A DNA stretch of 64,000 bases, taken from Fuerstiella sp. (GTDB lineage Bacteria; Planctomycetota; Planctomycetia; Planctomycetales; Planctomycetaceae). A model generated the notes under the pieces. The model ran no database searches. It saw only the letters and a list, made by a program, of their open reading frames with translations, and was not told where the DNA came from. Position 1 is the stretch's first letter, and each line of letters opens with the position of its first letter. Position numbers and translations under genes: made by a program. Of the stretch, positions 58,315-60,276 are shown one piece after another. The stretch lies in assembly GCA_022447225.1 (NCBI GenBank), contig JAKVAZ010000001.1, positions 527,824 to 591,823 of the forward strand, given 5' to 3'.

Positions 58315-58617
58315 CGAATGTCTTTCTGCCGAAACTCTGCACCGAATCCCCGGGGGGACTCCCAAAGATGTCGCACAAGGCCACCGGGAGCTGAACACTC
58401 ATCGACGACAAATTGATTTTAGCCACGGGCCCAGTCGAAGGAAAGTGCCGCCCTGTGGTTCCCGGCGGAAAGAACTTCGGCAGAACGGTCCGAATACGCA
58501 TAACCCGCTGTCATCTCGGTGATTCATTGTTGACAGATCGGTTCTCTCGTCGTTCAATCGCGCTTCGCTTTGTTCTCATACGTTCGCGGCCGGTATGCCG
58601 TTCCTTTCGCCTCTGAC

Positions 58618-59772
58618 ATGGCTATGCCGCAATTCGATTTTATTGCCACCGCCACCTTTGGTCTGGAAAATGTGGTTGCACGGGAGCTACAGGACCTCGG
58701 ATACACGAATTGTCAGGTTTCTGACGGACGGGTCCTGTTTTCCGGAAATGAACAGGACATTGCCCGCTGCAACCTGTGGCTGAGGTCGGCCGACCGTCTG
58801 TTGATTCGGGTGGGTGAATTTTCTGCCGGTGATTTTGGAGCACTTTTCGACAAAACAATTGATCTGCCGTGGAATGAACTCCTGCCGGTCGATGCGGAAT
58901 TCCCGGTCAGCGGCCGTTCTGTCCGGTCCAGACTCAAGAGCGTTCCCAGCGTGCAGGGCTGCGTGAAAAAAGCGATCGTGGAAAATCTGAAACGCCGATA
59001 CAACCGTTTCCGGTTCGACGAGTCCGGTACAAAATATCCCATTGAAATTTCCCTGCTGAAAGACGTGGCCACTTTAACTATTGATACTTCCGGTCCCGGA
59101 TTACACAAACGCGGCTATCGACAGTTAGCGGGGCGAGCTCCTCTGCGGGAAACAATGGCAGCCGGTCTGGTACAGTTGAGCTACTGGAATCGTGAGCGGC
59201 TGTTGATCGATCCCTTCTGTGGCAGCGGAACAATTCCCATAGAAGCGGCCCTCCTGGGACGTAATATGGCGCCTGGTCTGGGACGTTCGTTTCTGTGTGA
59301 AGACTGGCACTGGATAGATCGGAGTGTCTTTCGCGAAGCACGCACTGCCGCCAGAGATGCCCGTCTGCCAAAGCTGCCCGAAACAATTCTGGCCTATGAC
59401 CACGATCCGGCTGCCATTCGCCTTTCAGAACGCGGTGCCACGGACGCCGGTGTGGCTGTCGACATTCAGTTTCGTCGCCAGGAAGTCAGTGACCTTAAAT
59501 CGAAGCGAGAGTACGGCTGCATTGTCACCAATCCGCCGTACGGGGAGCGACTGGGTGAAACCGATGAAGTTGAGGCCGTGTATCGCGAACTGGGGCGAGT
59601 TTTTGCTCCACTGAGCACATGGAGTATCTATGTGCTCACGTCGAACCGCTGGTTCGAAAAGCATTATGGTTGTCGAGCATCTCGGCGCCGTAAACTGTAC
59701 AACGGTCGACTGGAGTGCCAGTACTACCAGTACCCTGGACCCCGGCCGCCGGATCCGCAATCATTTGAGTAA
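58618..59772 (+). CDS. THUMP-domain class I RNA methyltransferase (RlmL/RlmK N-terminal type)
   Basis: A 384-residue methyltransferase probably acting on 23S rRNA guanine N2. The N-terminal ferredoxin-like and THUMP domains (FDFIATATFGLENVVAREL, VVSDG-type turn, SVQGCVKKAIVENLKRRY) lead into the Rossmann domain with the SAM site LLIDPFCGSGTIPIEAAL and the catalytic motif NPPY (N305-Y308, IVTNPPYGERLG). It lacks the second methyltransferase half of E. coli RlmKL, so it resembles the RlmL part alone. ATG 58618 (MAMPQFDFIATATFG) is preferred over the longer frame from 58570; ATG 58624 is an alternative. It is divergent from hpf. Confidence 0.9.
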   Translation: MAMPQFDFIATATFGLENVVARELQDLGYTNCQVSDGRVLFSGNEQDIARCNLWLRSADRLLIRVGEFSAGDFGALFDKTIDLPWNELLPVDAEFPVSGRSVRSRLKSVPSVQGCVKKAIVENLKRRYNRFRFDESGTKYPIEISLLKDVATLTIDTSGPGLHKRGYRQLAGRAPLRETMAAGLVQLSYWNRERLLIDPFCGSGTIPIEAALLGRNMAPGLGRSFLCEDWHWIDRSVFREARTAARDARLPKLPETILAYDHDPAAIRLSERGATDAGVAVDIQFRRQEVSDLKSKREYGCIVTNPPYGERLGETDEVEAVYRELGRVFAPLSTWSIYVLTSNRWFEKHYGCRASRRRKLYNGRLECQYYQYPGPRPPDPQSFE

Positions 59773-59939
59773 TTCGTTTTTCTCAACCAGCTTTCGAAGA
59801 CGGATGACTCACCGCTCTCATCATCGATTCGGGTTTGGACGGACATCAAACTTTTGGTCATGGTTAAACTAAACCGGCATTCGAGTTTACAATTCCGCAA
59901 CGGAAACCCATACGTCAGTCAGGCAGCAGGAATCAAAAT

Positions 59940-60161
59940 ATGAAGATTTCAATCACCTATTGTGTGATGTGAAACTACACACCACAGGCTGTCGGTCTGG
60001 CAGCAGCAATTAAAGAATCGACTGGCGTCGAAGCTGAGCTCATTGAAAGCTCGGGCGGAATATTTGATGTAAAAGTCGACGACAGAATGATTTACAGCAA
60101 ACATGAGACGAATCGATTTCCGGAACACTCGGAAATACTAAGCCAGCTGCAAACGTCGTAA
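59940..60161 (+). CDS. SelW/Rdx-family selenoprotein (in-frame UGA as selenocysteine)
   Basis: A 73-residue thioredoxin-like protein read through a UGA at 59970-59972. The start is MKISITYCVM, then selenocysteine U11, then NYTPQAVGLAAAIKE, giving a C8-x-x-U11 redox motif at the end of the first strand as in Rdx (SelW/SelT/SelH) proteins. The second half has the family pattern AELIESSGGIFDVKVDD, then MIYSKHETNRFP, then SEILSQL. AGGA lies 8 bases before ATG 59940. Without UGA recoding the product would be only 10 residues, yet the frame stays open for 62 further codons and matches the family. A SECIS-like hairpin lies at 59988-60004. Rdx proteins are probably thiol oxidoreductases, but their partners are unclear. 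selA-selD are not in the window. Confidence 0.9.
59988..60004 (+). promoter_or_regulatory. Bacterial SECIS element of the selenoprotein gene
   Basis: Stem GCTGTC/GGCAGC (6 bp, one G-U) with the five-base apical loop GGTCT. The loop starts 21 bases after the UGA at 59970-59972. The E. coli fdhF element also has a GGUCU loop, 18 bases after its UGA, where SelB binds. The hairpin lies inside the coding region, as bacterial SECIS elements do. Confidence 0.8.
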
Positions 60162-60276
60162 GACTGCAACTCCATGTTGCTGACGCTGTATGTGGTCAGA
60201 ATCCTGTCCCGTATGCGTAGAGTCGGACAGCTCAGCGTCGCTGTGTCACTGCAGGAACGGGAACAGTGATGGCCTG

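Follow-up and report, generated by a model that had tools for sequence, protein, structure and literature searches.

A very probable SelW-like selenoprotein gene with an in-frame UGA codon and a SECIS-type hairpin in a Fuerstiella genome

In the 64,000-nt stretch of Fuerstiella sp. DNA analysed here (the window; G000:C1:527824-591823), the interval 59773-60276 holds a short forward-strand frame interrupted by TGA. The question it raises is whether this TGA ends a fortuitous or decayed frame, or is read as selenocysteine (Sec) in a gene of the SelW/Rdx family, as the original prediction had it. The limits of the interval are those predicted: a gene for an RlmL-like rRNA methyltransferase (THUMP domain; 58570-59772, +) ends immediately before it, and a convergent menaquinone biosynthesis gene (PF02621; 60277-61263, -) occupies the sequence immediately after it. 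Both neighbours are kept, upstream and downstream respectively, in the nearest relative (G001, of the same genus), and neither is part of the SelW system. The selW-like frame (59940-60161, +) also reads as described: it comprises 74 codons including the stop (73 residues, with one Sec codon), from ATG at 59940 through the in-frame TGA at 59970-59972 to TAA at 60159-60161, with 62 codons following the UGA and a read-through product of MKISITYCVM-U-NYTPQAVGLAAAIKESTGVEAELIESSGGIFDVKVDDRMIYSKHETNRFPEHSEILSQLQTS. The ribosome-binding site placed 8 bases 5′ of the ATG was located by direct reading, probably AGGA at 59928-59931. Frame reading and alignment of relatives put the codons of the redox motif, C-V-M-U (C8, U11), at 59961-59972. 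Sec had been predicted in a C-x-x-U motif, which is correct, and at its second position, which is not, Sec being the fourth residue, i.e. the second redox residue.

Open stretches of 62 codons beyond a stop are probably not in themselves rare, and the frame might extend past its stop codon by chance, with no gene present. Profile searches with the read-through translation bore out the predicted family, with matches over cut-off to Pfam Rdx (PF10262; 65.4 bits, cut-off 22.6, E 5.5e-18) and, in NCBIfam, to NF041051 ('SelT/SelW/SelH family (seleno)protein'; 90.5 bits, cut-off 88) and TIGR02174 (CXXU_selWTH; 54.4 bits, cut-off 34.2). Since the two NCBIfam models match above their cut-offs, a selenoprotein-aware pipeline could call the gene. 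An AlphaFold model of the protein is confident (pLDDT 93.9, pTM 0.81) and, when used in a fold search, is matched foremost by SelW-family structures, the top PDB structure being 2fa8, a SelW-related protein (TM by query 0.92, rmsd 1.1). In the predicted model C8 closes the strand spanning residues 3-8 and U11 follows the strand, giving the C-x-x-U of a thioredoxin-like fold. A profile of 33 UGA-type genes searched against PDB returned 8 sequences at E <=1, including SelW-related proteins, C17orf37 and mouse selenoprotein W; in the alignment used for this search and for the AlphaFold model (A2), each row whose stop codon is TGA has a surplus C at its end, the stop having been translated by the same code as the internal codon. 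Between the window and G001, the 39 differences within the frame cluster at third codon positions (7, 5 and 27 at positions 1, 2 and 3). The Rdx E-value, the structural matches and this clustering all argue against a chance frame, whose probability we regard as negligible; that the SelW-like frame with its UGA is more than a product of chance is confirmed.

A genuine Rdx gene could instead have been inactivated when a sense codon mutated to TGA, and the in-frame stop itself, together with a frameshift in the copy of one relative (G083), is what such a pseudogene might display. Comparison with G001 points the other way: the frame is conserved (87% identity before the UGA and 82% after it, gap-free, the G001 frame ending three codons sooner), the flanks much less so (64% and 57%, gapped). 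Over 59 codons after the UGA dN is 0.09 against a dS of 0.77; dN/dS is informative for this pair only, and in most other pairs dS is saturated or not computable.

The TGA codon itself is also retained. Relatives were gathered with scan patterns taken 3′ of the UGA, i.e. with no selection for UGA, giving 300 confirmed relatives of which the best 80 were kept; one of these (L151) ends before the site, leaving 79 readable. In 79/79 the codon is TGA, with Cys three codons earlier. Forty of the titles among these best 80 of 300 are planctomycete groups and the others span several phyla, including Deltaproteobacteria, Myxococcota, Gammaproteobacteria, Krumholzibacteriia, Zixibacteria, Acidobacteria and further bacteria, these labels being titles of metagenome-assembled genomes in which binning errors are possible; the closest of the 80 bears the title Fuerstiella sp. 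(L089). The original prediction had named a frameshift or a different codon in close relatives, together with a lack of conservation past the UGA, as evidence against it. No codon other than TGA was found in the 79, and the frameshift occurs in one case, G083, which belongs to the same class, but UGA and hairpin are kept there. In that genome the UGA-type selW (L079:1357-1595), its DNA read by eye, is frameshifted further on, through assembly error or decay, and because of this frameshift Rdx was matched only after the CxxU site. Given an identical TGA across so many relatives and a frame still under selection, a pseudogene seems very improbable.

If the frame is a functional gene, the UGA must be decoded, and the residue inserted is not readable from sequence alone: tryptophan, or near-cognate read-through to some other residue, would leave the same DNA. 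The decoding apparatus bears on this. The contig that carries the window has a single cluster in which a SelB ORF (629 aa) is followed by one for SelA (483 aa) and then by one for a SelD fusion (752 aa), and the genome has a tRNA-Sec (70.8 bits; called tRNA-SeC by ARAGORN, anticodon tca, UCA). The Sec machinery (selA, selB, selC and selD), which the original prediction had proposed searching for, is therefore complete in this genome. The SelD fusion, located at L071:6042-8300 (+) and adjoining selB and selA, has a pyridine nucleotide-disulphide oxidoreductase part at its N-terminus and a SelD part at its C-terminus, the latter with no stop in its frame. The type is already known: according to passages of PMC4561486, no other SelD fusion is nearly as common as that behind an NADH-dehydrogenase-like domain, and SelDs in fusions are of the Cys type, the one exception being a NifS fusion.

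Across 99 genomes (the window's own, G000, and 98 relatives), Rdx was detected in 43; 33, the window's genome included, have UGA at the CxxU site of an Rdx gene, and in nine the only Rdx genes lack the UGA; G083, with its frameshifted copy, would be a 34th UGA-type genome. selA and selD were each found over cut-off in 33/33 UGA-selW genomes, 18/66 others and 0/9 genomes with non-UGA Rdx only, where the 66 include G083 despite its frameshifted UGA copy. Fisher's test on the 99 genomes gave P 1e-13 for selA and selD against UGA-selW, a value that is too strong because it treats related genomes as independent. tRNA-Sec scored >60 bits in 29/33, 17/66 and 0/9 of the same groups; the four UGA-selW genomes with no tRNA-Sec above this score (G012, G045, G056 and G094) are drafts of 170-600 contigs, and the 52.6-bit match in G094 is a tRNA-Ser according to ARAGORN.

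Within the 99 genomes UGA-type selW thus occurs only together with selA and selD, which speaks against decoding as anything but Sec. The site also corresponds to the second Cys of a CxxC motif in 2fa8 (by alignment) and in the Cys-type relatives G013 and G028, and UGA serves as the genuine stop in 20 of the 33 UGA-type selW genes. It follows from these 20 that UGA would mean Sec only in context and that the code is not simply reassigned. The hairpin described below is conserved as well, and decoding as another residue is left with a very slight probability.

The 33-gene set, which includes the window's gene, was picked by its TGA and is therefore no test of TGA conservation. Two further genes were excluded from it as other paralogues, both genomes being counted by their first copy. 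One (L077; G052:C172:3077-3280, +) is a second, divergent Rdx gene outside the clade studied, with TGA at CxxU (WCTD-U-NL). The other (L078; G036:C190:820-999, -) is a Cys-type Rdx paralogue whose in-frame TGA does not lie at CxxU; related paralogues have Trp there (GFWGTF), and the TGA is likely a nonsense mutation or a sequencing error.

Directly after the UGA the window contains a predicted bacterial-type SECIS hairpin (59988-60004, +), with a 6-bp stem (59988-59993/59999-60004) and a 5-nt apical loop (59994-59998; GGTCT in the DNA, GGUCU in the RNA) that starts 21 nt past the UGA. All six stem pairs are formed in the window's own sequence. A model of the bacterial SECIS given in a passage of PMC13188914 has a loop of 3-9 nt, a stem of 4-16 bp, G in loop positions 1-2 and a UGA-to-loop distance of 16-37 nt, and the window hairpin agrees with it in loop, stem, G and spacing. 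Thermodynamic evidence differs with the length folded: the 45-nt stretch alone is no more stable than its shuffles (z -0.55, 53/200 as good), whereas the 19-nt hairpin alone scores z -2.56 against shuffles (6/200 as good). RNAalifold drew a weak consensus of only 5 pairs (-2.51 kcal/mol), and an Rfam search over the window gave no match at gathering scores. As the stability of the 45-nt stretch is not significant, the case for a SECIS rests on comparison.

Comparison indicates constraint on the structure. For 7 pairs across the 33 sequences, 92.2% of cells are standard pairs, against 20-56% in slid controls, and both sides have changed in 20 cells against a shuffle mean of 1.5. To allow for the coding role of the hairpin, codons were exchanged only between sequences that share the residue (5000 permutations): for 6 pairs, 180/198 cells are paired in the 33 sequences (permuted mean 170.9; 0/5000 as high) and 364/414 in 69 further distinct sequences (permuted mean 336.0; 0/5000 as high), the latter being the 79 readable relatives minus 10 that share the stretch with the 33-gene set. 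To judge from these alignments, hairpin covariation exceeds what coding explains. Pairing is imperfect at two positions: the outermost pair is open in 11/33 and 15/69 sequences and the fourth pair from the outside in 6/33 and 28/69. Codon choice at the apex is strict: in the 33-gene set the apical Ser codon is AGT in 25/25 cases, against 10 of the 99 Ser codons that lie farther 3′ in these genes, and the apical Gly codon is GGT in 8/8, against 33/186 further downstream. In the 69 further sequences AGT accounts for 49/50 Ser and GGT for 18/18 Gly, with one AGG, and GT is absent from the apical loop in 2/69. Between the window and G001, third positions differ at 0/16 sites from the UGA to +45 and at 23/44 beyond. 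The pseudogene, the chance frame and decoding as a residue other than Sec were all rejected on the strength of conservation, third-position bias and the machinery.

We conclude that 59940-60161 is almost certainly a SelW-like selenoprotein gene, in which the hairpin would direct insertion of Sec at codon 11 by way of SelB, SelA and SelD to give a presumably redox-active product; the selenoprotein interpretation of the original prediction is thus supported. Established biology makes selenocysteine the very probable reading of this UGA: SelA and SelD would produce Sec-tRNA(Sec), the hairpin 21 nt past the UGA would hold SelB carrying it, and selenocysteine would be delivered at codon 11 in place of termination. 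The Cys8-x-x-Sec11 pair would then make and break a selenenylsulfide bond in a small thioredoxin-fold protein, and by the same reasoning its most likely role is that of a thiol/selenol oxidoreductase or redox carrier.

To our knowledge no partner or substrate has been assigned to the bacterial SelW-like family. Its function is termed unclear in a passage of PMC1088965. In seven of the 33 UGA-selW genomes (G065, G074, G075, G076, G082, G092 and G094), selW directly adjoins selD (loci L004, L014, L019, L020, L021, L030 and L074), with the start of selB next in L004. These were the only matches of a neighbour search over 118 loci with one SelD query (E 1e-8), all within the 99 genomes; none was found beside selW in the 80 named loci, and the window's own selW is not linked to selD. 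The adjacency, together with the lack of a Cys form in the 79 readable relatives, is the basis for a further suggestion, that this SelW clade is an obligate selenoprotein dedicated to selenium handling, e.g. keeping selenide reduced or carrier-bound for SelD. We consider this unlikely, and the selW-selD adjacency in some relatives to be a small lead on the function of bacterial SelW-like proteins.

Other genes of the same genome also contain an in-frame TGA. L174 (G000:C10:238600-241000, -) has it in GCLT-U-PPF and matches iodothyronine deiodinase (PF00837; 29.5 bits, cut-off 27); it is likely a bacterial deiodinase-like selenoprotein. L173 (G000:C1:477500-480200, +) is an AhpC-TSA/thioredoxin-like gene with the TGA in a U-x-x-C site. 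A molybdopterin-type gene, L175 (G000:C21:8200-11200, -; 24.3 bits, cut-off 24), we take from its sequence to be probably formylmethanofuran dehydrogenase subunit B (FmdB). FmdB is reported as a selenoprotein of planctomycete P2 in a passage of PMC4807772. L176 (G000:C6:284800-287500, -) is a peroxiredoxin gene with TGA at T-G-G-U (AhpC-TSA 116 bits when read through), matching the TxxU layout that a passage of PMC1088965 reports for Prx selenoproteins.

Passages of PMC1088965 rank SelW-like proteins that have CxxU and a bacterial SECIS first in abundance among the selenoprotein families of the Sargasso Sea set (48 genes), and in passages of PMC2398784 the SelW-like family generally leads in abundance across marine GOS samples (427 selenoproteins and 56 Cys homologues); 'Selenoprotein W like' is entered with 35 and 35 in part of PMC5029168, and very few or no Cys homologues of SelW-like proteins among Sec users are reported in part of PMC1794560. 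The biology of the window's gene is not new, because the SelW family, its motif and this SECIS type have long been described: the gene adds to a well-known, widespread bacterial family and is an annotation catch rather than a discovery. It does illustrate that a reading of bare sequence can recover a short selenoprotein gene of the kind that callers recognising UGA solely as a stop would drop, and planctomycetes gain a well-supported SelW.

Among known systems, the Rdx proteins with solved structures (2fa8, 2obk, 3dex and 2p0g) are of the same family and share the fold of the window's protein (TM by query 0.85-0.92); 2fa8, the one of the four in which the residue was compared, has Cys at the site of the UGA. 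Mouse selenoprotein W (2npb) is likewise a family member (E 1.9e-6; TM by query 0.71), with a contrast in the position of the SECIS, which according to a passage of PMC1088965 lies in the 3′ UTR in eukaryotes and which in the window lies inside the coding region. Planctomycetes P1 and P2 from Porphyra possess every component of the Sec machinery and a number of selenoproteins, a Sec form of FmdB among them (passages of PMC4807772), and the words 'SelW' and 'Rdx' are absent from the main text of that paper; a literature search for selenoprotein together with Fuerstiella found none. The closest counterparts are the bacterial SelW-like selenoproteins described in parts of PMC1088965, PMC2398784 and PMC1794560, with which the window's protein has CxxU in common, as its gene has a bacterial SECIS directly after the UGA with G in a small apical loop; the sole difference found is the host lineage, here a planctomycete.
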